A DNA stretch of 64,000 bases from an uncultured Pseudomonadota bacterium (GTDB lineage Bacteria > Pseudomonadota > Gammaproteobacteria > Steroidobacterales > Steroidobacteraceae): positions 62,001 to 126,000 of the forward strand of contig CAIYLH010000047.1 of the NCBI GenBank assembly GCA_903927005.1, read 5' to 3'. Below are positions 7,451 through 21,080 of the stretch, one piece after another; the first letter of the stretch is position 1; every line of letters begins with the position of its first letter. Made by a program: the position numbers and the translations under genes. Under the pieces are notes generated by a model. The model ran no database searches. It had not been told where the DNA came from and saw only the letters and a program-made list of their open reading frames with translations.

Positions 7451-8941
7451 GTGCACAAGATCCTGATCAACGGAGCGTGGGTTGACGCGCAGACGGATGC
7501 TAGCCGCGAGATCCAGAATCCCGCGACACTCAAGCCGCTCGGCGTCGTGCCGGAGTGTGGGCCTGAGGATGTGGCACGGGCGGTGGCGGCCGCGCGTGCC
7601 GCCCAGCGCGACTGGTGGAAGGTCCCTGCGGTGGAGAAGGCGGGCCTGATGCGTGAGATCGGCGCGCGGATCCGCGCGCGTGAGCAGGCGTTGGCCACGC
7701 TCATGACGCAGGAAACCGGCAAGCCGCTGGTCGAGTCGATCGACTGCATTGACTGGGTCGCGGCGTGCTTCGAGTACTACGGCGAGGTAGCTCGTTCAAG
7801 CTACGGCAATTCGATTCCGCCCGTGGCGCCGCACCAGATCAATTTCACCATCAAGGAGCCGTTTGGCGTGGTCGCGGCGATAGCGCCGTTCAATTTCCCG
7901 CTGTTGCTGATGGCGTGGAAGGTGGCGCCGGCTATCGCGGCCGGCAATACGGTCGTCTGCAAGCCGCCACACCAGAATCCGTTGTCGAACCTTTTGCTCG
8001 CCGAGGTCTACGACATTCTGCCGCCGGGTGTCGTGAACGTGCTGACCGGAGGGCCCGACACCGGCGCGGCGCTAGTCGATCACCCGGATGTCGACATGAT
8101 CGCGTTCACCGGCTCCACTGCCGTGGGTCGCAAGGTCGCCGCGGCGGCCGGCGCGGCACTGAAGAAGGTCAACCTCGAGCTCGGCTCGGTCGACCCATTT
8201 ATCGTCTGCAAGGACGCCGATCTTGATGTCGCTGTGCCCGGTGTCGCCTGGGCGCGGCTGCTCAACTCAGGCCAGGTTTGCACCTCTGCCAAGCGCATCT
8301 ACGTGGATCGCTCGATCGCGGACGAATTCGTCATGCGGCTGCACATGTATATCGGTGAGCTGTCAGTGGGCGATGGCATGAAGGCCGACAACGACATGGG
8401 GCCGCTGATCTCGCGAGAGGCGTCACGACGGGTCGAGGATCAGGTCGCCCGCTCGATCCGTGATGGTGCGCAGCTCGTTCTGGGCGGTTTCCGCTTCCGG
8501 CCCGAGGGCCTGCCCGGGCATTTCTTCCAGCCGACCATCCTCAAGAACGTCCGCCACGGCAGCCTGCCGACGCGTGAGGAGATCTTCGGTCCCGTATTGT
8601 CGGTCACGCCGTTCGACGACACGGACGAGGCCATTCGGTTTGCCAATGATTCGGAGTACGGCCTTGGCGCGTGCATCTACACGAACGATCTGAAGGTCGC
8701 GATGCAGGCGATGGAGTTCATCAAGGCGGGCACTTTCTGGATCAATGATCCACTCACCGACAACGAGGCGGGGCCGTTTGGCGGCATGCGCCACAGTGGT
8801 ATCGGTCGTGAACTGGGCGCCGAGGGCCTCGATGCATTCCGCGAGTCCAAGCATGTCCACATGGATTACGTGATGGAGCGCAAGAGCTGGTGGTTTCCGT
8901 ACCGCAACCGTCGCTCGCCAGGCTCCGGGGGGCACCGTTGA
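7451..8941 (+). CDS. NAD(P)-dependent aldehyde dehydrogenase
   Basis: A 496-residue ALDH-superfamily enzyme that oxidises an aldehyde to the acid. The Rossmann segment AFTGSTAVGRKVA, general-base Glu243 and catalytic Cys277 (GQVCTSAKRIY) are present, as is [10 protein letters not shown]. The normally near-invariant ELGG around the glutamate reads ELGSVDPF here, so the second glycine is replaced. The sequence is closest by eye to the succinate-semialdehyde or betaine/amino-aldehyde dehydrogenase groups. It overlaps the FAD oxidoreductase start in a TTGA junction, and such pairs typically oxidise an amine to an aldehyde and then to an acid. The true substrate is unknown. Confidence 0.9.
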   Translation: MHKILINGAWVDAQTDASREIQNPATLKPLGVVPECGPEDVARAVAAARAAQRDWWKVPAVEKAGLMREIGARIRAREQALATLMTQETGKPLVESIDCIDWVAACFEYYGEVARSSYGNSIPPVAPHQINFTIKEPFGVVAAIAPFNFPLLLMAWKVAPAIAAGNTVVCKPPHQNPLSNLLLAEVYDILPPGVVNVLTGGPDTGAALVDHPDVDMIAFTGSTAVGRKVAAAAGAALKKVNLELGSVDPFIVCKDADLDVAVPGVAWARLLNSGQVCTSAKRIYVDRSIADEFVMRLHMYIGELSVGDGMKADNDMGPLISREASRRVEDQVARSIRDGAQLVLGGFRFRPEGLPGHFFQPTILKNVRHGSLPTREEIFGPVLSVTPFDDTDEAIRFANDSEYGLGACIYTNDLKVAMQAMEFIKAGTFWINDPLTDNEAGPFGGMRHSGIGRELGAEGLDAFRESKHVHMDYVMERKSWWFPYRNRRSPGSGGHR

Positions 8942-10215
8942 GCAGCGTGGACCGTTGCTACTGGCAGGATGACGTGCCGCTGCCGGTGGCGCCTGCCACT
9001 GCGCTGCCGGCGCAGGTCGACGTGCTGGTCGTAGGCAGCGGCTATACCGGCCTTGCAGCTGCGCGGGAGACCGCGCTGGCGGGTCGCTCGACGCTGGTGC
9101 TGGACGCGGGCCCACTGGGTGGCGGCTGCTCGTCGCGCAATGGTGGCCAGGTCGCCTTCAGCATCAAGCCCAGTCACGCAGAGCTTGTCGCCCGCCACGG
9201 TCGTGCGATTGCCGACGGCATCTATCGCGAAGGGATGGAGGCAGTTGCTGAGCTGCGGGAGCGCGCCATCAGCGGCGAACTGGATTGCGACTGGCGCGAT
9301 GTCGGCGCCTTCGTCGGGGCGCATACGCGCCGTCACTACCAGGCACTGGTGCGTTCCGTCGAGCAGCAGCCGCGTGGATTTGAGGTGCCCTTCGAGGTCG
9401 TGCCTGCGGCGCGCCAGGCCGAAGCGATCGACAGCCCGCTGTATCACGGTGGTGTCGTGTTTCCCGGCGAGGCGGCGGTGCAGCCGCTGCGCCTTGTGGT
9501 CGCCATGCACCGCCAGGCTGTCGAGGCCGGCGCGCAGTTTGCCAGTCACTGCGAGGTGCGCAGCATCGATCGCAACCGCGATGGCCTCGAGGTTGCAACC
9601 GCCGCAGGAACCGTGCGCGCACGGCGCGTGCTGCTCGCTACCAACGGCTATAGCGGACCGCTGTCGCCGTGGCATCGACGGCGGGTGTTCCCGATCGGCA
9701 GCTACATCGTTGCGACCGAGCTGCTCGATCCGGCCGTTGTTGCGCGTCTGATACCGCACGGCAGGAACCTGGGCGACACGCGCCGGGTGGTGGTCTATAT
9801 CCGCCCCTCGCCAGATGGCCGGCGCATCCTGTTCGGCGGTCGTGCCGCCGCCGGCGAAACCGATATCGCACGCTGTGTACCGCGCCTTCGGCAGATGCTT
9901 GGGGAGGTTTTTCCGGAACTCGCCCAGGTGGGCATCACGCACGCGTGGATGGGCTTTGTAGGCTTTACGTTCGACACAATGCCGCATCTCGGCGAGCGTG
10001 ACGGGGTCTACTACAGCATGGGGTATTGCGGCCAGGGTGTTCCAAGTGCGACCTACTATGGGCGGCGTGTAGGGCGGTGGATGGCGGATCGGCCGGGTGG
10101 CGAGTCGGCGCTGCGTAACTTGCCGTTCCCATCACGGCCGTATTACACCGGCCGACCCTGGTTTTTGCCGATCGCCGTGCAGGGTTACCGCTGGCTTGAT
10201 CGGCTCGGACTGTAG
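8938..10215 (+). CDS. FAD-dependent amine oxidoreductase (PuuB/OrdL-like)
   Basis: A DAO-family flavoprotein of about 425 residues. It carries the FAD dinucleotide motif VLVVGSGYTGLAAA and the segment GGGCSSRNGGQV seen in gamma-glutamylputrescine oxidase relatives, plus the C-terminal GYCGQGVPSATYYGR. I place the start at TTG 8938, whose TTGA overlaps the ALDH stop and is preceded by a G-run at about 8928-8932; GTG 8947 is an alternative, and the frame is open to ATG 8890 inside the ALDH gene. The family oxidatively deaminates secondary or primary amines and glycine-type substrates, giving the aldehyde that the upstream ALDH could use. The exact substrate cannot be read. Confidence 0.85.
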   Translation: MSSVDRCYWQDDVPLPVAPATALPAQVDVLVVGSGYTGLAAARETALAGRSTLVLDAGPLGGGCSSRNGGQVAFSIKPSHAELVARHGRAIADGIYREGMEAVAELRERAISGELDCDWRDVGAFVGAHTRRHYQALVRSVEQQPRGFEVPFEVVPAARQAEAIDSPLYHGGVVFPGEAAVQPLRLVVAMHRQAVEAGAQFASHCEVRSIDRNRDGLEVATAAGTVRARRVLLATNGYSGPLSPWHRRRVFPIGSYIVATELLDPAVVARLIPHGRNLGDTRRVVVYIRPSPDGRRILFGGRAAAGETDIARCVPRLRQMLGEVFPELAQVGITHAWMGFVGFTFDTMPHLGERDGVYYSMGYCGQGVPSATYYGRRVGRWMADRPGGESALRNLPFPSRPYYTGRPWFLPIAVQGYRWLDRLGL

Positions 10216-10837: not shown

Positions 10838-11863
10838 TCAACCGCGTTGCTGCGCCTCGTAGACACCGCGCGCGATAGCGCGGGCGAGGCAGTCGGCGGC
10901 AGCGGATCCTAGTCGCGCAACCAGCGAGGGTGGCGCCGGCCCATCTGTACCGGCTACACCTGTGGCAACTGCAAAGATCGTGTCGCCATCGAACGGCGTG
11001 TGTGACGGGCGTACGGCCCGGGCGATGCCGTCGTGTGCCATGACCGCGATGCGTCTGCAATCCGCGCGCGATAGCGCCGCGGAGGTCGCTACGATCGCGA
11101 TGACCGTGCTCGTGCCGGGCTGGAGTGCGGCGAGGTCGCCCAGGCGTGACTCAGGCGGCGCCGGGTCGATCAGTGGCGCTGTGTCGACTGGCCGCCGACC
11201 TCCAAACTCGCCGTCGATCTCGTAGGGCCAGGCGTGAAATGTGCGGCCGTCGGGTAGAAACACGCTGCCGATCGAGTTGACGGCGACCAAAGCGCCGACG
11301 ATCAGTCCGTCGCCGAGGTCCAGCGAGGCGGAGCCCAGACCGCCGCGCTGCTGGCCTGCGCGTGCGCCACGGCCGGCGCCGATCGCGCCCAGTGCAAACC
11401 GGGTGGTGGCTGACTGCAGCGATGCGGCGCCGAGCGCCTGGTAGGGCGATTCGGTCCAGCTCTTGTCGCCGCTGCCGGCAAGGTCGTGCAGCACCGCTGC
11501 CGGCACGATCGGGATCGCGCGCGTGTGCGTCATGATATGCAGGCCAACGCCGGCGTTCGACAGGGCGATGGCGACACCGTCCGCGGCCGCCAGTCCGAAC
11601 ACGGAGCCGCCGGCGAGCACGATCGCATGCGCGTGTCCGATCAGCGCATCGGGAGCGAGAGTGTCGGTCTCGCGAACGCCGGGTGCGCCACCGCGAACAT
11701 CGACGCCCGCCACCAGCGGCTGGTCGCCGCACAGTGTCGTCACGCCGCTGTGCGAGCGCTCGTCGGTGGCGTGTCCGACCCGCAGGCCGGGTACGTCGGT
11801 GATCAGGTTCAGGGGGCCTGGGCGCAAGTTCCTCTCCCGTTCTTCAAATGCAGCGGCCGCCAT
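10838..11863 (-). CDS. P1/S58-family peptidase (DmpA/NylC-like)
   Basis: A 341-residue member of the self-cleaving P1 family that includes DmpA, beta-peptidyl aminopeptidases and the nylon-oligomer hydrolase NylC. Family marks are ITDVPGLRVGHATD at the N-terminus, GGAPGVRETD, VLAGGSVFGLAAADGV, SIGSVFLPDGR and the C-terminal SHTPFDGDTIFAVATG. Members cut themselves to expose an N-terminal nucleophile. By eye the cleavage region reads GTSTVIAIVATSAAL, where NylC-type proteins have Asn-Thr-Thr; Thr is kept but the Asn position is Ser. It would hydrolyse amide bonds of unusual peptides, beta-peptides, D-amino-acid amides or omega-amino-acid oligomers. It is the last gene of the minus-strand operon and overlaps the SDR gene by 20 bp. 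No signal peptide is seen. Confidence 0.88.
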   Translation of the reverse strand: MAAAAFEERERNLRPGPLNLITDVPGLRVGHATDERSHSGVTTLCGDQPLVAGVDVRGGAPGVRETDTLAPDALIGHAHAIVLAGGSVFGLAAADGVAIALSNAGVGLHIMTHTRAIPIVPAAVLHDLAGSGDKSWTESPYQALGAASLQSATTRFALGAIGAGRGARAGQQRGGLGSASLDLGDGLIVGALVAVNSIGSVFLPDGRTFHAWPYEIDGEFGGRRPVDTAPLIDPAPPESRLGDLAALQPGTSTVIAIVATSAALSRADCRRIAVMAHDGIARAVRPSHTPFDGDTIFAVATGVAGTDGPAPPSLVARLGSAAADCLARAIARGVYEAQQRG

Positions 11864-12590
11864 CGACCTCGAGGGCGACGCCGGTGATCATGCCGGCTTC
11901 ATCGGAACACAGGAACGTCGCCGTGTTCGCCATGTCCTCCGCCGTCGCGAAGCGACCGAGCGGAATCGAGGCGAGGAACCGCGCGCGGGTCTCCGGCGTA
12001 TCGCTGCCCATGAATGTCGCCAGCAGCGGCGTCTCGCTCGCTACCGGATTGATCGCGTTGACGCGGATGCCGAACGGCGCGAGCTCGACGGCCATAGAGC
12101 GCGTCGCGGTGATGACCCAGCCCTTGGAGGCGTTGTACCAGGTCAGCAGTGGCCGCGGACTGACGCCTGCGGTCGAGCCGATGTTGAGGATCACGCCGCG
12201 GCGGCGGGTCTTCATCGCCGGCACCAGTGCGCGCGCGGTCAGGTACACCGAACGCACGTTCACTGCCAGCAGGCGCTCGAACTCGTCGTCGGCAAGATCC
12301 TCGAGCGCCTGCGGGACGTGGCCGATGCCGGCATTGTTAATCAGTATGTCGATTGCGCCGAGCGCCGCAGTCGCTGCTGCAGCAAGTGCAGCGACGCTGT
12401 CCCGATCGGCGACGTCCACGGCGATTGCGATGGCCGCGTCGCCGAGCTCAGCTGCTAGTGCCGTTGCGGCGGCAGCGTTTATGTCGGCGATCACCACGCG
12501 CGCACCTTCGGCAACAAAGCGTCGCGCGATGCCGGCTCCGATGCCGGACGCCGCGCCGGTCACGACCGCTGTCTTGCCTGAAAGTCGCAT
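11844..12590 (-). CDS. SDR-family oxidoreductase
   Basis: A classical short-chain dehydrogenase/reductase of about 248 residues. It has the cofactor motif TGAASGIGAGIA, an acidic residue after beta-2 (VVIADINAA) favouring NAD(H), NNAG, and the active-site YNASK preceded by a serine-poor GSTAG segment. It would interconvert an alcohol and a ketone or aldehyde. I prefer ATG 12590 (MRLSGKTAVVTG) over an ATG 15 bases upstream. It lies 23 bp after the aldehyde dehydrogenase gene and overlaps the P1 peptidase gene downstream, so it belongs to the same operon. Confidence 0.9.
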   Translation of the reverse strand: MRLSGKTAVVTGAASGIGAGIARRFVAEGARVVIADINAAAATALAAELGDAAIAIAVDVADRDSVAALAAAATAALGAIDILINNAGIGHVPQALEDLADDEFERLLAVNVRSVYLTARALVPAMKTRRRGVILNIGSTAGVSPRPLLTWYNASKGWVITATRSMAVELAPFGIRVNAINPVASETPLLATFMGSDTPETRARFLASIPLGRFATAEDMANTATFLCSDEAGMITGVALEVDGGRCI

Positions 12591-12613
12591 CTGTGTGCCT
12601 CGCATATCGTCGT

Positions 12614-14065
12614 TCAGCGGTGACGGGCCGCGACCGTCTTGACGGTCGTGAATCCATACAACGCCTCGAATCCCTTCTCGCGACCATGGCCCGACCAGCC
12701 GACCCCACCGAATGGCAGTTCGACCCCGCCGGCGGCGCCGTAGTCGTTGAGAAACACCTGCCCTGCACGGAGTCGCCGGACCAGCCGATGCTGGCGACCG
12801 GCATCGCGCGTCCAGGCGCCTGCGACCAGACCGAAGCGGGTGCCATTGGCGAGCGCGATGGCCTCTTCCTCGGAGTCGAACGCCATCACCACCTGCACCG
12901 GCCCGAAGATTTCCTCTTGGGCCAGCGGCTGGTCGGGCCGCACGCTGCCCAGCAGGGCAGGCGCGACGTAGTGGCCGCGTTCGGGCGCGGTGTCGACCAC
13001 CTCGCCGGCGGCAAGAAGTTCGGCGCCGGCGCCCAGTCCGGCGGCGAGCAGTCCGCGCACTCGCTGCAGTTGCGCCGCCGAAATCAGTGGCCCCAGATCC
13101 AGATCCTGCGCGGCGGGCCCGACGCGTAGCGCGCGATAGCGGCTGACCAGCGCCTCGACGACCTGATCGTAGACGCTACGCTGCACCAGCAGACGTGAGC
13201 TTGCTGAGCAGGTTTGGCCAGCGTTCTGCAGGCCAGCGCGCACGAGGACCGGCAGTGCGACTTCGAGGTCGGCGTCGTCAAAAACCAGTTGCGGCGACTT
13301 GCCGCCCAGCTCGAGCGTGACCGGTGCGACGTGCCGAGCCGCGGCGGCCTGTACCGCGATGCCGACCTCGACCGAGCCGGTGAAGGACACGTGGTTGACG
13401 CCTGGATGGGCGGCCAGTGCGGCGCCGGCCTCCTCGCCGAGTCCAGGCACGACATTGATGGCTCCGGCGGGGAAGCCCACCTCCATCGCCAGACGGGCGA
13501 ACGCGAGCGTCGTCAGCGACGCTTCCTCAGCCGGCTTGATCACCACCGCATTGCCGGCGGCGAGAGCAGCACCGACGGAACGGCCGATGATCTGCATCGG
13601 GTAGTTCCACGGGATGATGTGCCCGGTGACGCCGTGCGGCTCCCGCAAGGTGTAAATCGTATAGTCCGCTAGATACGGAATCGTCGTGCCGTGCAGCTTG
13701 TCGGCGGCGCCCGCGTAGAACTCAAGGTAGCGGGCGAGGGCGACCACGTCGGCACGTGCCTGGCTCACTGGCTTGCCTACGTCGCGCACCTCGAGTGCGG
13801 CGAGCATGTCCACCTGCGCGCTTACCGCACGGCCAAGCTCGGCAAGCAGGCGACCGCGCTGCAGTGCCGTTAGGTTGCCATAGACGCCGTCAAACGCTTT
13901 ACGCGCCGCTCGAACGGCGACATCGACGTCCGCGGCGGTGCCGCGCGCGATACGTCCGATCTCGAGTCCCGTTGACGGGTCCTCGACGGGCAGCGTTGCG
14001 CCGCCGTCGGCATGACGCCATTCGCCGTCGATTAGCAGCAGGTCAGTCGTGAACGGCAGCGTCAT
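12614..14065 (-). CDS. Aldehyde dehydrogenase
   Basis: A 483-residue NAD(P)-dependent ALDH. VSFTGSVEVGIAV is the cofactor segment, ELGGKSPQLVF carries general-base Glu252, and GQTCSASSRLLVQ carries catalytic Cys286. EEIFGPVQVVMAF and ELPFGGVGWSGHGREKG complete the family pattern. It resembles the aldehyde dehydrogenases of betaine aldehyde, gamma-aminobutyraldehyde and gamma-glutamyl-aminobutyraldehyde oxidation more than the ALDH at 7451. ATG 14065 forms an ATGA overlap with the upstream ATPase gene stop; the frame is open further upstream but only as antisense of nothing conserved. Within the operon it probably oxidises an aldehyde made from the imported compound. Confidence 0.9.
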   Translation of the reverse strand: MTLPFTTDLLLIDGEWRHADGGATLPVEDPSTGLEIGRIARGTAADVDVAVRAARKAFDGVYGNLTALQRGRLLAELGRAVSAQVDMLAALEVRDVGKPVSQARADVVALARYLEFYAGAADKLHGTTIPYLADYTIYTLREPHGVTGHIIPWNYPMQIIGRSVGAALAAGNAVVIKPAEEASLTTLAFARLAMEVGFPAGAINVVPGLGEEAGAALAAHPGVNHVSFTGSVEVGIAVQAAAARHVAPVTLELGGKSPQLVFDDADLEVALPVLVRAGLQNAGQTCSASSRLLVQRSVYDQVVEALVSRYRALRVGPAAQDLDLGPLISAAQLQRVRGLLAAGLGAGAELLAAGEVVDTAPERGHYVAPALLGSVRPDQPLAQEEIFGPVQVVMAFDSEEEAIALANGTRFGLVAGAWTRDAGRQHRLVRRLRAGQVFLNDYGAAGGVELPFGGVGWSGHGREKGFEALYGFTTVKTVAARHR

Positions 14066-15687
14066 TCCGGGGAATCCTCTGCGCTGCGGCGCGCCAGTGC
14101 GCGGTCGAACAGCGGCGTTGCGGCGACCAGAGTGCGAGTGTACGGGTGTTCCGGCCGGTCGAGTATCCGGGCCGTTGCCCCTTGTTCGACGATCCGTCCT
14201 TCGTGCATCACCAGCAGTCGGTCGGTGACTGCCCGCGCCACCGCGAGGTCGTGGGTCACGAACAGATAGGCGAGGCCGCGCTCTCGCCACAGGCGGGCCA
14301 GCAGCTCCAGGATCTGTAGGCGGGTGGTGGCGTCGAGCGCGGAAACCGCCTCGTCCAGCACCAGCAGCCGCGGCTCGACGACCAGCGCGCGCGCGATCGC
14401 GATTCGCTGGCGTTGGCCGCCGGAAAACTGCTCGGGCCTGGCGCGGAGGTTGGCGGAGCCTAGCCCGACCGCTTCGAGGGCCGCCGTCACGCGCCGCTCA
14501 CGCTCCGGCCGCGGTAGTCGTTCTGGATACAGGTGCAGTGGCTCGGCGACGATGCGGCCGATGCTGTGGCGGGGGTTCAGGCTGCCATAGGGGTCCTGGA
14601 AGACCACCTGGACCAGGCGTCGTAGCGGTCGCAGCCGCTCGGCGCCCACGGCGTACAGCGCCTCGCCCGCGATCCGGACGGTGCCCGACTGCGCTCGGTC
14701 CAGGCCGAGCAGCGCCCGTACCAGAGTCGATTTGCCGCTGCCGGACTCGCCGACGAGGCCCACCCGCTCGCCGGCGGCGATGCGCAGGCTGACCCCGTCG
14801 AGCGCGCGCCGCGTCGGCGTAGGGCCGAAGAACGATCTGCGTGGCAACGGATAGTCACGTATCAGGTCCTCGGCCCGCAGCAACACTTCCGTCGGCTCGG
14901 TCAGTCGCGGCAGCAGTTCGGGCGGTTGGTAGTCGCGCAGCAGCTGCTGGGTATAGGGGTGCGCAGGCCGGGTCAGAATGGTTGTGAGCCGACCTTGTTC
15001 CACGATGCGACCCGAGCGCAGGATCGCGATCGAATGGGCGGATTCGGCGACGACCGCAAGATCGTGGCTGACGAGGACCATCGCCATGCCATCCTCGCTC
15101 GCCAGCGTCCGTAGCAGCGCGAGGATCTGCGCCTGAGTCGTCACGTCCAGTGCGGTTGTCGGCTCGTCGGCGATCAGCAGCGCCGGTCGCGCGGCGATGG
15201 CGATGGCGATCGCCACGCGCTGCCGCTGGCCGCCGGAGAGCTCGTGCGGGTAGCGTGTGGGTGGGATGCTTGCGGCGGGTAGTCCGACCCGTGCGAGCAC
15301 CGCCGCCGCGCGCATGGCGGCCTCTGCCGGCGTCGCTGCGCTGTTCGCGAGCAGGCCTTCGGTGACCTGTGCGCCGATCGTCAGCAGCGGATTGAGGGCC
15401 GTGGCGGGCTCCTGGAACACGATGCCGATGCCGCGGCCGCGGATCGTACAGAGCGTGGCCTCGTCCGCACCGAGCAATTCGTGCCCATCCAGCCTCACGC
15501 TGCCGCTGACGGTCGCACCTGCTGGCAGCAGTCCCATCAACGCCAAGGCGATCATCGACTTGCCAGATCCGGACTCGCCGACCAGTCCGTAGACCTCGCC
15601 TGCGTTGACCTCAAGCTCGATGGCCGTCACAAGCGGGTGCCCGTCGAGCGAAACGCTGAGGTCGCGGACCTGTAGTCGGACGGTCAC
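14062..15687 (-). CDS. Opp/Dpp-type ABC transporter, double ATPase
   Basis: A 541-residue protein joining two ATPase domains, equivalent to DppD plus DppF. Domain 1 (about 1-250) has Walker [12 protein letters not shown], signature [12 protein letters not shown] and Walker [13 protein letters not shown]. Domain 2 (about 270-530) has [26 protein letters not shown] and [12 protein letters not shown]. The oligopeptide-type C-terminal [14 protein letters not shown] follows each domain. It energises the permeases encoded just upstream. The GTG start overlaps the upstream permease stop by 4 bp (GTGA) and its stop overlaps the ALDH start (ATGA). Such fused ATPases are known in this transporter family. 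Confidence 0.93.
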
Positions 15688-16514
15688 GGTGATCCGGCCC
15701 TGGAGCGGGGGTCCAAGTGCGTGGCCATCGCGCTACCGACCAGGTTGAGTGCAAGCACTGCGAGCGCCAGCGCAAGGCCCGGAAACAGCGCCAGCCAGGG
15801 GGCGCTGCTCGCGAGCGTCTGCGCCTCGTTGAGCATGCGTCCCCAGCTGGGGTCCGGGGGCTGAACGCCGAGGCCGACGTATGACAGTCCCGCTTCAGCG
15901 ACGATCGCGAGCGACAGCTGGATCGTTGCCTGTACGACGATCAGTGTTGCTACGTTGGGCAGCAGGTGGTCGAAGGCGATCGCGGCGGTACTGCGTCCTG
16001 CGACGCGTGCCGCCATGACGAAGTCGCGCTGCATCAGGCTCAGTGCGTTGCCTCTAACCAAGCGCGCAAACACCGGCACGTTAAAGACGCCGATGGCGAT
16101 TACCGCGGTCATTGCCCCGGGGCCGGCGGCTGCCGCGAGCAGTACGGCGAGGAGCAGCGAAGGAAACGCAAAGACGAGGTCACCAGCGCGCGCCAGCGCG
16201 TCGTCGGCAAGTCCGCCACGGGCCGCTGCCAGCAGGCCTAGCGGTACGCCGCACAACAGTCCGGCGGCCACCGCGGCGAGTGCAACGCCGAGCGAGGTGC
16301 GCGTTCCGACCGCCACCAGCGCGAGTACGTCCCGACCCAGCGCATCGGTTCCGAACCAGTGCGCTGCCGACGGCGCGAGCAGGCGGGAGCCGACTTCTAT
16401 CGTCAGCCCGGCATCGTAGACCGAGCTTAGCGAGCTCAATGCCAGCGCGGCATAGACCGACAGCAATACTGTACCGATTTTCAGACCCACGGTTAAGCGC
16501 GCGGGCGGCATCAT
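15684..16514 (-). CDS. Opp/Dpp-type ABC permease (DppC-like)
   Basis: A 276-residue inner-membrane permease of the OppC/DppC type. It has about six hydrophobic segments, the DppC-type entry region AHWFGTDALGRDVLALVAVGTR, and the ATPase-coupling loop with FVMAARVAGRSTAAIAFDHLLPN. A late GLGVQPPDPSWGRML segment is characteristic. It pairs with the permease half of the fused protein upstream. ATG 16514 gives an ATGA overlap with the fused gene's stop. The N-terminus is short compared with E. coli DppC. Confidence 0.92.
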   Translation of the reverse strand: MMPPARLTVGLKIGTVLLSVYAALALSSLSSVYDAGLTIEVGSRLLAPSAAHWFGTDALGRDVLALVAVGTRTSLGVALAAVAAGLLCGVPLGLLAAARGGLADDALARAGDLVFAFPSLLLAVLLAAAAGPGAMTAVIAIGVFNVPVFARLVRGNALSLMQRDFVMAARVAGRSTAAIAFDHLLPNVATLIVVQATIQLSLAIVAEAGLSYVGLGVQPPDPSWGRMLNEAQTLASSAPWLALFPGLALALAVLALNLVGSAMATHLDPRSRAGSP

Positions 16515-19078
16515 CGTGCTCCAGTGTCGCGCAGGCGCGGATCGACGACCGCATACAGCAGTTCAACCAGGAAGTTGACCAGCACCACGGCCGCTACCAG
16601 CAACAGGACGACGCCGCGCACCACGATCAGATCGCGCTGCGCTGTGGCCTGGAACAGCAGTCGGCCAAGTCCCGGCAGCGCGAACACGGTCTCGATGATG
16701 ATTGCACCGGCCAGCAGGAACGAAAACTGCAGCCCGATGATGGTCAGCGCCGGGATCATCGCGTTGGGTAGCGCGTGCCGGCACAGTGCCTGCCAGCTGC
16801 TAAGCCCCTTGGCGCGCGCTGTGCGGACGTAGTCTTCTGCCAGTGCCAGTCCAAGTTCCGCCCGCAGCACGCGCGCCAGAATGCACGCCTGTGGCAGGGC
16901 GAGCGACACGGCAGGCAGCGTCAGCGCCCGCAGCGCCGGTCCTATGCCATCCTGCCAGCCAGGGAAGCCGCCGGCGGTGAACCAGTGCAGGTGTACGCTG
17001 AACGCCAGGATCAGCAGCAGCCCAAGCCAGAAGTTGGGCACGGCCAGTCCAACCTGCGCGATGCCCATCAGCAGCGAGTCCAGCGCCCGGCCCGGACGGC
17101 GCGCGGCGACGAGTGCCGCTGGCAGCGCTAGTGCGATCGAAAGGCACAGCGCATACAGCGCCAGCGGCAGCGATACCGTGAGTCGTTGGGCGACGAGGTC
17201 GGCGACCGGCACGCGGTAGGTGTAGCTGAGCCCGAGGTCGCCATGTGCGAGTGCTGCCAGCCACTGCAGGTACTGCTGCCAGGCCGGAACATCCAGTCCG
17301 TACTCGGCGCGCAGGTTCGCGACAGCGCTCTGACTCGCGTTCAGGCCCATCATGTAGGCGGCGGGATCACCCGGCAGGACGTTCACGAGCAAAAATATCA
17401 GCAACGAGGCGCCCAGCAGCGTGACTGCAAGCGTGATGCTGCGGCCCAAGAGGTGGCGGGCGCTGACGTGGCGGCGTAGTGCCAGTGCTGCAAGCGTGAA
17501 GATCACGAGCGCGAGCGCAGTGAATACGCCGCCGCTGGATCTGGTGATTGTGGCTGCCGCTGCATGGCCTGCCGGCCCATCGAGGTATGCCGCTGCCAGC
17601 GGGATGCCCTGTATCGGCGCCTCGCGCCACAGGCCATGCAGGTCGTGTCGCCAGACGCCGAGCTTGGGTAGCTCGAACAGGAAGACGTTGACGCAGTCGT
17701 CGGCCAGTTGCCGCTGCAGCTCGCTCAACAGGCGCAGACGCGAGGACTCGTCGCGGGTACGGGATAACGCCGCGAGGCGCGCCGCGTAAGTTGGGCTCGA
17801 GTAGCCGAAGTAGTAGCCGGGCCGCGCGTAAATGTCGTAGTCCATCGGCTCGGTGTGCGAGATGATCGTCAGGTCGAAGTCGCGGTTCTTGAAGACCTGC
17901 TCAAGCCACTGCGCCCACTCGATGTTCTCGATTCGCACACGTATGCCAATCGCTGCTAGCTGTGCTGCGATGATCTCCCCGCTGCGGCGCGCGTAGTACG
18001 GCGGCGGCAGGCGCAGCGTCAGGGCGAAGCCGTTCGGATAGCCTGCCTCGCGCAGTAGCGCACGCGCAGCGGCCGGATCGAACGGGTAGCGCGCGGTGAG
18101 GTCGACGTAGGCCGGGTCATGCGGCGGAAAGTGACTGCCGATCGGTTGGCCGTAGCCGTACATCGCACCCTGGATGATCGCGCGGCGGTCGACCGCGTAG
18201 GCCAGTGCCTGCCGCACGCGCAGGTCGTTGAAAGGTGGCCGTGCGTTGTTGATGGCCAGTAGCGTCTCGCCTTCCGTCGAGCCGATCGAGACGGTGAAAC
18301 GCCCATCGTGCTCAAGTGCCGCGACGCCCTCCGGCGCGGGGAAGTTGGAATAGCCGTCCACATCTCCAGCCAGCAAGGCCGCCAGTGCACTGCTGGCGTC
18401 GGGCACGATCCGGAATGTCACCCGTTGGAGGCGGGCTGGTGTGCCCCAGTAGTCGGGGTTGAGCTCCAGCACCACCGCGTCGCCCTTGCGCCACTCGACG
18501 AAGCGGTAGGGCCCGGTTCCCACCGGCGCGGTTGCGGCCCGTGTGGCGGTGGCTGGGCTGAGGATGACGAGATTGCCCCAGCCTAGGTAGGTGAGCAGGT
18601 CAGCGACCGGCCGTTCCAGCTCGAGCTCGACGGTCAGCTCGTCGACGATGTGGATCGCCTGCAAGGGTGCAAGCAGCTCGCGCAGGGGGTTGGTGGAGCC
18701 GGCCGCGCGCGCCCGGTCCAGCGACCAGCGTACGTCTGCCGCAGTGAGCGGCGTGCCGTCGTGGAAGTGCACGCCGCGGCGCAGATTGAAGCGGTAGCGC
18801 AGGCCGTCGTCGCTGACGGTCCAGCTTTGGGCGAGCCCCGCCGCGACGCGGCCCTGTTCGGTGATGCGCGTCAGGCCTTCATAGACGTTGCCGTAGACCA
18901 CATCCTGGGTGGCCTCGGCGGACGTTGCGGTCGGATCAAGGTTCGGTGGCTCGAGCGCAAGCCCGAGAGTGATCATGTTCGTTGCGGCGCTCGCGGTCGG
19001 CGAAAATAGCAGCGCGGCCCAGAGCACCAGCGCGAGGGCGGGAGCTGACCGGTCGCCGCGTCGCGACCCCACGCTCAT
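16511..19078 (-). CDS. Fused binding protein-permease of an Opp/Dpp ABC importer
   Basis: An 855-residue single frame with two complete functions. Residues 1-31 are a signal peptide. Residues about 35-505 are a family-5 solute-binding protein: LEPPNLDPTAT, the AQSWTVSDDGLRYRF entry, VGTGPYRFVEWRKGD and NNARPPFNDLRVRQALAYA. A hydrophobic helix at about 516-535 is followed by RR, and residues about 540-855 are a DppB-type permease with VNVLPGDPAAYMMG and the coupling loop DYVRTARAKGLSSWQALCRH. An extra helix with positive residues after it would place the permease N-terminus in the cytoplasm, as in normal DppB, while tethering the receptor in the periplasm. Both junctions with neighbours are ATGA overlaps. 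No stop or frameshift separates the halves. Confidence 0.93.
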   Translation of the reverse strand: MSVGSRRGDRSAPALALVLWAALLFSPTASAATNMITLGLALEPPNLDPTATSAEATQDVVYGNVYEGLTRITEQGRVAAGLAQSWTVSDDGLRYRFNLRRGVHFHDGTPLTAADVRWSLDRARAAGSTNPLRELLAPLQAIHIVDELTVELELERPVADLLTYLGWGNLVILSPATATRAATAPVGTGPYRFVEWRKGDAVVLELNPDYWGTPARLQRVTFRIVPDASSALAALLAGDVDGYSNFPAPEGVAALEHDGRFTVSIGSTEGETLLAINNARPPFNDLRVRQALAYAVDRRAIIQGAMYGYGQPIGSHFPPHDPAYVDLTARYPFDPAAARALLREAGYPNGFALTLRLPPPYYARRSGEIIAAQLAAIGIRVRIENIEWAQWLEQVFKNRDFDLTIISHTEPMDYDIYARPGYYFGYSSPTYAARLAALSRTRDESSRLRLLSELQRQLADDCVNVFLFELPKLGVWRHDLHGLWREAPIQGIPLAAAYLDGPAGHAAAATITRSSGGVFTALALVIFTLAALALRRHVSARHLLGRSITLAVTLLGASLLIFLLVNVLPGDPAAYMMGLNASQSAVANLRAEYGLDVPAWQQYLQWLAALAHGDLGLSYTYRVPVADLVAQRLTVSLPLALYALCLSIALALPAALVAARRPGRALDSLLMGIAQVGLAVPNFWLGLLLILAFSVHLHWFTAGGFPGWQDGIGPALRALTLPAVSLALPQACILARVLRAELGLALAEDYVRTARAKGLSSWQALCRHALPNAMIPALTIIGLQFSFLLAGAIIIETVFALPGLGRLLFQATAQRDLIVVRGVVLLLVAAVVLVNFLVELLYAVVDPRLRDTGAR

Positions 19079-20355
19079 GGTCCTAGATGCAGCAGCGCGT
19101 GAGCGGCACGTGCCATTACCTGTGCCGATGCGACGAGGTCGTCGATGCCGACATATTCGTCGGGCTGGTGGGCGAGATCGAGAATGCCTGGGCCGTAGGC
19201 GATGCAGTCCTTAAGACGACCGATGCGGTCGATGTGCTTCTGGTCGTAGGTGCCGGGGGAGCAGACGATCTGTGGCTCGCGGCCGAGCACTGCGCGTATC
19301 GCGGCGGTGGTCGCCTGGACGACCGGTCCGGCGGGGTCCGCCATTGTCGGCAGCACCTCGAACAGGTCGCGCAGCTTATAGCCGAAGCCCGGCCGTTCGG
19401 CGACGAGTCGTTCCAGCAATTCACGAACCTCGCCCTTGACCTCGCCGAGTGTTTCTTCGACGAGGAAGCGACGGTCGAGTACGACGCGGCAGGAGTCCGC
19501 GACGCAGGGCGACGGCAGGCCGTCATGGCCCTCCGGCTGTCCACCGTGGACCGAGTTGATGTTCAGCGTGGACTGCCGTGCGGCCTCCGGCACGACCGGC
19601 ATCATCGTTTGGCGCGCCGCGAGGCGCGGCAGCAGCTCGTGTTCGACTCGTTCGAGCAGCGCGCCCATGTGGCGGATCGCGGAGTCGCCCAGAAACGGCA
19701 TCGAGCCGTGCGCGATGCGGCCTAGAGTCTCGATTTCGGCCCACCAGACGCCGCGGTGGCCGATGCAGACCCGGTCGACGTTAAGCGGCTCCGGGATGAT
19801 CACGTGCTGGACGCGCTCTGGGGAGAACCAGCCACGCTCGGCGAGGTAGGCGACCCCGCCGTAGCCGCCGGATTCCTCGTCAACGGTGCCGGAGATCTCG
19901 ATCGCTCCGGGTAGCGGCAGGCCGGAGTCGATCAGCGCTTCGGTCGCTACGATCGCCGCGGCCAGACCCCCTTTCATGTCACAGGTGCCGCGGCCGTAGA
20001 TCCGTCCGTCGCGGACCACCGCCGCGAACGGGTCGACGCTCCAGCCTCTACCCGCCTCGACCACGTCGATGTGGCCATTGAAATGTACGCAGCGGCCGCG
20101 CGTGGCACCTTCGTGGCGGGCGATGACATTGATCCGCGGATAGCGGTCGGAATCCCCCGGGGCGCCGACGCCGCGCACGTACTCGATCGCGAAGCCGCGT
20201 GCCGCGAGCCGTCGGCCGATCGTCTCGGCACATTCGCGGTAGCAGTCCCCCGGCGGATTGGTGGTGGGAATGCGTACTAATTCACGCGTCAGTTCCACCA
20301 ACTCCTCGCGCCGGCTGGCGATGTCCTCGGCGACCCGCGCCAGCGCCTCGCTCAC
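19075..20355 (-). CDS. M20-family metallopeptidase/deacylase
   Basis: A 426-residue dizinc amidohydrolase of the ArgE/DapE group. Metal and catalytic motifs are HFNGHIDVVEAG (His and Asp), GRGTCDMKGG (bridging Asp), DEESGGYGG (catalytic Glu pair), IIPEP and the late AHQPDEYV histidine. The lid domain lies between about residues 190 and 305. Members remove N-acyl groups or cut short peptides in the cytoplasm. GTG 20355 overlaps the coaX stop (GTGA) and its own stop overlaps the fused transporter start (ATGA), so it is translationally tied to the import operon and probably trims the imported compound. ArgE, DapE or carboxypeptidase G2-like activity cannot be told apart here. Confidence 0.9.
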   Translation of the reverse strand: MSEALARVAEDIASRREELVELTRELVRIPTTNPPGDCYRECAETIGRRLAARGFAIEYVRGVGAPGDSDRYPRINVIARHEGATRGRCVHFNGHIDVVEAGRGWSVDPFAAVVRDGRIYGRGTCDMKGGLAAAIVATEALIDSGLPLPGAIEISGTVDEESGGYGGVAYLAERGWFSPERVQHVIIPEPLNVDRVCIGHRGVWWAEIETLGRIAHGSMPFLGDSAIRHMGALLERVEHELLPRLAARQTMMPVVPEAARQSTLNINSVHGGQPEGHDGLPSPCVADSCRVVLDRRFLVEETLGEVKGEVRELLERLVAERPGFGYKLRDLFEVLPTMADPAGPVVQATTAAIRAVLGREPQIVCSPGTYDQKHIDRIGRLKDCIAYGPGILDLAHQPDEYVGIDDLVASAQVMARAAHALLHLGP

Positions 20356-21080
20356 GGGGCGGGTCCTGCGGTGGCGACGATCGCAAGTCCTGTCAGGACG
20401 AGGTCGGTGACCGTCTCGACGGGCTGGGATAAGAGCGGTTGCAGCAGCCGGGCGTCACCGCCGGTCAGCAGCAGTCGCGGCACGACGCCGAGTTGCTCGG
20501 CAAACTCGCGGCAGGCCCGATCGGCCAGGGCCGCGAGCGTCAGCGCTACCGGGTCCGTCGGCAGATTGGGGAGTGCGACATTGTCGCGCAGCGCCGCTCC
20601 GCCGTGGTCCAGAGAAGCACGGGCTTCGCCAAGCATCAGTACGCCGGGCAGGATCAGCCCGCCGCGATGGCGGCCGGTGGCGTCGAGCGTATCGACGGTC
20701 AGCGCCGTGCCGCTGTGTACGATCAGGGTTGGCCGCGCGGCGCTGCGCCAGGCTGCGATCAGTCCCAGCCAGCGGTCCACGCCGAGCGCTGCGGGACGGA
20801 TATAGCCATTGGTCACGCCGAGCGCCTGACGGGTCGCGACGATGAATTCCGGCTCGACGGCGTAGTGATCGCGTGACCACAGCGTCAGCGCCGCGGCAAA
20901 CGCCGGGCCTGCGACGTTGGCGACGACGATGCGGGTCGGGCGGTGGCCATCGGCCTCGATTTCGCGCTGCCAGCTGCGGTGCGTGGCATCGTGCGCGATC
21001 GCGCCAGCGGGCGCGATCTCGAGATACTCGAGCCACGCCCACTTGACCCGCGTATTACCGGCGTCCAGCAGGAGAATCAT
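20352..21080 (-). CDS. coaX: Type III pantothenate kinase
   Basis: A 242-residue ASKHA-fold kinase making 4'-phosphopantothenate, the first step of coenzyme A synthesis. Motifs are the phosphate loop LLDAGNTRVKWAW, the GVDRWLGLIA segment, SGTALTVDTLDATGRHRGG and the C-terminal LLTGGDARLL. Length is normal for the family. In many proteobacteria coaX follows birA; here it is first in the minus-strand gene string and overlaps the M20 gene by 4 bp. As a housekeeping gene it may have been captured at the head of the catabolic operon or simply provide its promoter. Confidence 0.94.
   Translation of the reverse strand: MILLLDAGNTRVKWAWLEYLEIAPAGAIAHDATHRSWQREIEADGHRPTRIVVANVAGPAFAAALTLWSRDHYAVEPEFIVATRQALGVTNGYIRPAALGVDRWLGLIAAWRSAARPTLIVHSGTALTVDTLDATGRHRGGLILPGVLMLGEARASLDHGGAALRDNVALPNLPTDPVALTLAALADRACREFAEQLGVVPRLLLTGGDARLLQPLLSQPVETVTDLVLTGLAIVATAGPAP

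Follow-up and report, generated by a model that had tools for sequence, protein, structure and literature searches.

A gene that joins a solute-binding receptor to a DppB-type permease in a probable Opp/Dpp/Nik-class importer of an uncultured Steroidobacteraceae bacterium

The window analysed here comprises 64,000 nucleotides from an uncultured bacterium of the Steroidobacteraceae (Gammaproteobacteria; contig CAIYLH010000047.1, positions 62,001 to 126,000, of assembly GCA_903927005.1), and it raises the question of whether a gene at 16511..19078 of its minus strand, which runs without interruption from a family-5 solute-binding receptor into a DppB-type permease, encodes one working chain and what such a chain would do. 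A sequence-only reading had described this single frame of 855 residues as receptor, extra helix and DppB permease, leaving the strand unstated, and domain searches, structure prediction and conservation bear the description out. The product is probably the single-chain receptor–permease of an ATP-binding cassette (ABC) importer of the Opp/Dpp/Nik class (type I), in which a tethered receptor would deliver amide- or peptide-like solutes to its own gate. The topology of the chain, its persistence at full length, its stoichiometry, delivery in cis and the substrate class are the predicted parts of this reading.

Translation of the minus strand gives a single frame of 855 codons, the plus-strand reading being broken by stops, and the precursor has a computed mass of 92.4 kDa. 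The genome assembly, in 139 contigs, carries one copy of the fusion. In Pfam searches, SBP_bac_5 (PF00496) covers residues 79-409 with 306 bits against a cut-off of 32.4, while BPD_transp_1_N (PF19300) and BPD_transp_1 (PF00528) cover residues 541-613 and 652-850 with 39 and 133 bits, respectively, both above their cut-offs. In NCBIfam, models of the GsiB, NikA and DppA types cover the N-terminal part and models of the DppB, NikB and Opp2B types approximately residues 541-852; among the best 25 of 27 matches, the fusion lies below every equivalog cut-off and each model, like each Pfam model, covers only one half of the protein. An AlphaFold2 model based on 25 fused sequences, with a predicted local distance difference test score (pLDDT) of 83 and a predicted template modelling score (pTM) of 0.79, contains a complete receptor followed by permease helices from residue 540. 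With Foldseek, the receptor part matches AgaA (6hlx) at a TM-score of 0.88 by target, and also DppA and relatives, the matched chains being receptor-sized (474-543 residues among the best 50 of 447 matches). By sequence, the top permease chain is E. coli DppB (8z1v, E 3.7e-63), and OppB (8z21) is also matched.

Several parts can be distinguished along the chain. A Sec-type signal sequence devoid of a lipobox Cys, recognised by eye, occupies residues 1-32 (18983..19078), includes a low-confidence model helix at 11-23 and would be cleaved near the junction of TASA and the next A. The family-5 solute-binding domain follows (residues 33-499, 17582..18982), and then a flexible spacer of about 17 residues (500-516, 17531..17581), an extra transmembrane helix, TM0 (517-535, 17474..17530), and the DppB-type permease (541-850, 16529..17458), with an EAA-like loop, DYVRTARAKG, at residue 749.

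The integrity of the frame was judged from orthologues with a receptor score of at least 330 bits. After removal of duplicates, this set comprised 27 fused and 70 split sequences, all distinct, the latter with receptor and permease in separate genes. A stop or frameshift near base 17520 (codon 521, inside the helix), which the sequence-only reading had named as a refutation, is not present in the window, and the same frame is open in the 27 distinct fused orthologues. They include named metagenome bins and Caulobacter sp. 602-1 (L038), and 24 of them align to the window fusion with 50-82% identity over the length.

Topology demands an added helix at the junction, since the C-terminus of a family-5 receptor is outside and the N-terminus of a DppB permease is inside. 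The helix with a subsequent Arg-Arg that had been proposed at this place is recovered: residues 517-535 are hydrophobic (hydropathy 2.33) and run into Arg535-Arg536-His, and AlphaFold2 predicts one helix at 515-537, after a stretch with pLDDT below 50 at 502-517 and before TM1 at 540-567. A 19-residue linker window with a mean hydropathy of 1.64-2.90 is found in all 27 fused orthologues, where it always exceeds the best receptor window of the same protein (closest in L043, 2.20 vs 1.73). Moreover, in 21 of the 27, Lys and Arg are commoner over the 15 residues that follow the helix than over the 15 preceding it, as expected for a helix running from outside to inside, which is the probable orientation of TM0.

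The linker between receptor and permease measures 47-84 residues among the fused orthologues and starts where split receptors end. The latter stop a few residues past the conserved domain, e.g., at YLEN-stop in Robiginitomaculum; in the 69 split orthologues compared (L054, cut by a contig end, was left out), the tails end 10-15 residues past the matched domain, the best tail hydropathy is 0.82 and no tail contains a hydrophobic stretch. An inheritance of TM0 from an anchored free receptor is not supported, as none of these 69 relatives carries the helix. Across 25 sequences, mean pairwise identity is 0.18-0.19 in spacer plus helix, compared with 0.59 in the receptor and 0.64 in the permease. 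Similarly, the ratio of nonsynonymous to synonymous differences (pN/pS), calculated for six pairs from six sequences of the same genus, is 0.57-0.78 in the linker, 0.20-0.34 in the receptor and 0.18-0.42 in the permease, with noisy values of 0.56-1.33 for the 18-codon helix alone. Low identity together with a preserved hydrophobic stretch implies that the open frame and a property are conserved, not the letters. The linker also illustrates how an outside domain can be connected to a permease starting inside, namely by a helix whose letters hardly matter.

Fused genes are sparsely distributed. In the same genus, 8 of 15 genomes contain a single-frame fusion, and in the family, 18 of 217 contain a one-frame match across both halves, own genome included in both counts. 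In 20 of the 396 genomes sampled from the order, a match reaches E 1e-75 or better; it is fused in 19 and has stops in one, G410 being counted as fused although its contig ends within the permease. Matches at this level occur in 13 genomes of the class sample (369), where the own gene alone is fused, as far as can be judged from match rows and loci. The phylum sample (398) has 73 matching genomes; the own gene and G1162 are the sole one-frame matches across both halves among those listed, and 28 further matches inspected as loci, plus three more, are all split. A contig scan of genomes returned 59 loci, the fused ones including those of an unclassified alphaproteobacterium, of Caulobacter sp. 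602-1 and of a bin assigned to the Woeseiaceae, the last cut by a contig end. Split orthologues belong mainly to the Alphaproteobacteria and Betaproteobacteria. In three sampled phyla, those of a Desulfurococcaceae archaeon (L085, 181 genomes), Corynebacterium (L082, 178) and Chloroflexi (L087, 181), no stop-free match across both halves is listed; the rows spanning both halves, counted by eye, number 7, 24 and 29, respectively, all with stops. Among receptor or permease rows of these phyla and of the genus, family and phylum samples whose open frame is long enough for a fusion, 70 loci were inspected and 65 have both genes, L163, which is the known Caulobacter gene, being the only fused one; 20 further loci, 18 with both genes, contain no fusion, these inspections covering part of the long-frame rows. 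Plasmid searches matched 666 records, and the three inspected among the 40 listed are all split. All these searches used the window protein as query, strong matches and few candidates per genome, so that unrelated receptor–permease fusions could escape them. Split loci such as L117, L167, L172 and L184 often have the receptor gene next to the permease gene, in the same frame and few codons away. Such neighbours might in principle become fused if a stop were lost, yet only the helix-bearing lineage was found fused.

In a tree of receptor plus permease with 51 rows, 25 fused rows form one clade (support 99/98), and the remaining two, L112 and L131, stand beside a split Robiginitomaculum pair in a group of four (97/86). 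This topology requires two changes, either a fusion and a fission or two fusions; a quick tree of 97 rows also requires two, although its well-supported branches force only one. Keeping all fused rows together in the 51-row tree incurs a penalty of 4.9 log units, and the approximately unbiased test does not reject it (p-AU 0.09); the linker is too poorly alignable to decide between one and two origins. The split Robiginitomaculum form (L035-L037), whose identity in the best segment is 56-57%, may have lost the helix in a fission event. The order to which the window belongs has fused genes in two of its families, and such genes are also present in a genome from a different class (G1162) and in Caulobacter; because of this scatter, the fused gene has likely been transferred horizontally. 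One of the two families is taken to be the Woeseiaceae, since the truncated genes of G410 (L116) and of the Woeseiaceae bin (L044) are the same.

The partners of the fusion are encoded immediately downstream on the minus strand. A DppC/NikC-type permease of 276 residues (15684..16514), overlapping the fusion by 4 nt, matches PF00528 with 105 bits and the Opp2C and NikC models best, below equivalog cut-offs, and Pfam finds no receptor domain in it. It is followed by a double ATPase with DppD and DppF in one chain (14062..15687), which contains two ATPase domains with oligo_HPY extension and two sets of Walker A, signature, Walker B and His motifs, both sites being intact. The proposed reduction of the importer to three polypeptides therefore holds at the gene level. 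The tested components of a type I ABC importer of the Opp/Dpp/Nik class are all encoded here (family-5 receptor, DppB, DppC and two oligo_HPY ATPase domains); a separate receptor protein, which is a usual but non-essential trait of the class, is lacking. The covalent link between receptor and permease that marks tethered-receptor importers is present at the gene level, while two other traits of that kind, a homodimeric gate with several receptors and a permease of the betaine or polar amino acid class, are not found. Judged by its sequence, the system would best be filed as Opp/Dpp-class by every tested component, with tethering like that of OpuA and GlnPQ, yet with one receptor per gate.

According to the model proposed here, the signal sequence would direct the binding domain into the periplasm, and after the floppy spacer TM0 would cross back to the cytoplasm, letting DppB begin with its N-terminus inside. 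DppB, the receptor-free DppC and the double ATPase would constitute three polypeptides with one tethered receptor per heterodimeric gate, because the gate should be a heterodimer and DppC has no receptor. The tethered domain would catch small peptide- or amide-like solutes and hand them to its own permease without loss by diffusion; with the reckoning of the OpuA paper (PMC11065425) and an assumed receptor radius of 3 nm, a 16-residue tether would give a local receptor concentration of approximately 1 mM. Once in the cytoplasm, the solutes would be cleaved by the M20 and S58 hydrolases that the operon also encodes. The genome, 97% complete, has one SBP_bac_5 domain as opposed to 24 BPD_transp_1 domains; hence, no free family-5 receptor competes for the gate in this 97% of the genome.

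Several observations weigh against this reading. Seven of the 15 genomes of the genus and 199 of the 217 of the family that were searched showed no fused copy, which makes it an accessory trait, and the position of the split Robiginitomaculum among fused rows indicates that the fusion is dispensable or arose twice. The model confidence of TM0 is modest (block means 41, 65 and 68 over 511-540), its orientation is a prediction, and 6 of the 27 fused orthologues show no Lys/Arg excess after the helix. Moreover, the nearest solved receptors bind varied ligands, which leaves the substrate class a deduction from context. Lastly, the chain could be cut after its synthesis. If this happened in the spacer, the products would be a receptor free in the periplasm and a permease bearing one additional helix at its N-terminus, and the fusion would couple synthesis only. 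The spacer, predicted to be disordered and evolving fast, is consistent with such processing, as are the split orthologues with their free receptor; however, no common motif was seen by eye in linkers that vary from 47 to 84 residues, protease sites as such not having been searched for, and cleavage is considered unlikely.

The other explanations fare worse. An assembly or sequencing artefact that erased the stop between two ordinary genes might be suspected in a genome in 139 contigs, the more so as some split relatives have both genes adjacent, in frame and with one stop between them. Nevertheless, 27 distinct fused sequences exist, Caulobacter sp. 602-1 among them, and fused genes encode a hydrophobic stretch within some 30 additional residues or more, a feature that the loss of a stop would not create, so that an artefact can practically be dismissed. 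A second translation start in the linker, from which an additional free permease would be made and fused and unfused gates would coexist, could use GTG at codon 525 or TTG at codons 544 and 559, but none of these is preceded by any of the five Shine–Dalgarno-like words tested, no ATG occurs in codons 481-560 and a start at 525 would lie within TM0; it is thus very unlikely. It is hardly more credible that the tethered domain senses or regulates the gate instead of delivering substrate: nothing speaks for it directly, the nearest receptors having diverse ligands, whereas purifying selection on the receptor resembles that on the permease and the gate could be fed by no second family-5 receptor of this genome. 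Delivery by a tethered receptor is the preferred reading.

The fusion belongs to what appears as a tight minus-strand operon (10838-21080) in the order coaX, M20, fusion, dppC, double ATPase, aldehyde dehydrogenase, short-chain dehydrogenase and S58. The first five genes are joined by successive 4-nt overlaps: coaX, for a type III pantothenate kinase (20352..21080), overlaps the gene of an M20 amidohydrolase/peptidase of the PRK13013 type (19075..20355), which overlaps the fusion. The aldehyde dehydrogenase (12614..14065) has its likely start at ATG 14065, in an ATGA overlap with the ATPase stop; the short-chain dehydrogenase (11844..12605) lies 8 nt past it and is overlapped by the gene of an S58 aminopeptidase family protein (10838..11863), whose nearest solved chain is ThnT (3tm1, 163 bits). 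Just beyond the operon, the plus strand carries genes for another aldehyde dehydrogenase and for an FAD-dependent oxidoreductase of the DAO type (7451-8941 and 8890-10215).

Neighbours were counted by hand over the 27 distinct fused loci, the window included, leaving out loci cut by contig ends. M20 adjoins the fusion in 20 of 25 judgeable loci (missing in G119, G120, G123, L038 and L043); 23 of 25 have S58 nearby, the exceptions being G007 and G123, and coaX is present in 16 of 26, part of these stretches being shortened by contig ends. The kinase gene is missing beside both alphaproteobacterial fusions, L038 (Caulobacter) and L043, and was seen near 15 of the 17 fused loci examined in family f1. 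S58 had seemed a mark of the fused form (9 of 10 fused vs 0 of 26 split loci with at least 10 kb), which was overturned by a second split set of 20 other orthologues, hand-picked from the class and phylum samples with 19-20 kb each, where S58 lies near 6, M20 near 13 and coaX near none. Since M20 and S58 also stand near split orthologues, these genes accompany the transporter subfamily and not the fusion. At least one split orthologue (L252) is flanked by every gene of the operon set except coaX, and others have parts of the set nearby; because of this recurrence, whole or in part, the set looks like a conserved cluster for amide catabolism. In L230, L232-L235, L244 and L246, these neighbours are arranged in other orders and on other strands; in several loci of family f7 the dehydrogenases lie upstream of M20, and in genera g3 and g7 S58 and coaX lie on the other strand.

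As hydrolases share the operon, the gene content suggests a cargo with an amide or peptide bond that is cut inside the cell. The ThnT-like S58 protein and coaX make pantetheine or pantothenate candidate cargoes, although coaX may merely be a neighbour kept by descent. An asymmetric one-receptor importer of pantothenate- or pantetheine-like beta-alanyl amides, followed by cleavage by S58 and M20, oxidation of the alcohol by the dehydrogenase pair and passage of pantothenate to the kinase, is conceivable and yet improbable; it draws on the activity of ThnT and on the oxidation route of pantoate. If it were true, the M20 gene would be a candidate for pantothenase, the protein identity of which is called currently unknown in a passage of a 2023 paper (PMC10393543).

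Receptor–permease fusions as such are already known. They are named for Gram-positive bacteria in PMC9732360, and a paper on glutathione-binding proteins states that Gram-negative receptors are sometimes fused to a membrane domain (PMC3295651). For the Opp/Dpp class, no account of such a fusion was found in the literature searched, most subscription journals lying outside the search, and databases may already list the architecture. If the chain stays whole, the peptide-importer class would have its own natural equivalent of OpuA and GlnPQ, in which each gate is inherently asymmetric and carries a single tethered receptor. The tether may then alter transport kinetics, as the sequence-only reading had proposed, and fused and split orthologues (Robiginitomaculum), or a form cut in the spacer, would allow a clean comparison of the effects of tethering.

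Compared with known systems, the importer shares its receptor family, DppB and DppC permeases and oligo_HPY ATPases with E. coli DppABCDF, OppABCDF, GsiABCD and NikABCDE, which differ in having a separate receptor chain, and the solved chains match either the receptor or the permease half (best 60 of 108 matches). The split orthologues belong to the same subfamily, and several share the M20, double ATPase, dehydrogenase and S58 neighbours, but their receptor is free and TM0 is absent. In Bacillus subtilis ArtRQP, one receptor is likewise fused to one membrane subunit, although this is another transporter and the relevant passage relies on predicted structures (PMC11466899). OpuA (OpuABC of Lactococcus lactis) and GlnPQ, with which the sequence-only reading had aptly compared the fusion, also have the receptor covalently tied to the permease. 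According to the passages concerned, OpuA has an anchoring helix and a short linker of 11 residues, likewise poorly conserved among species (PMC11065425), and GlnP a linker of 19 residues (PMC8025302). Both belong to other transporter classes and have homodimeric gates with two (OpuA) or four (GlnPQ) receptor domains, whereas the window fusion places a family-5 receptor on one half of a heterodimer, with an extra helix between the N-terminal receptor and TM1.

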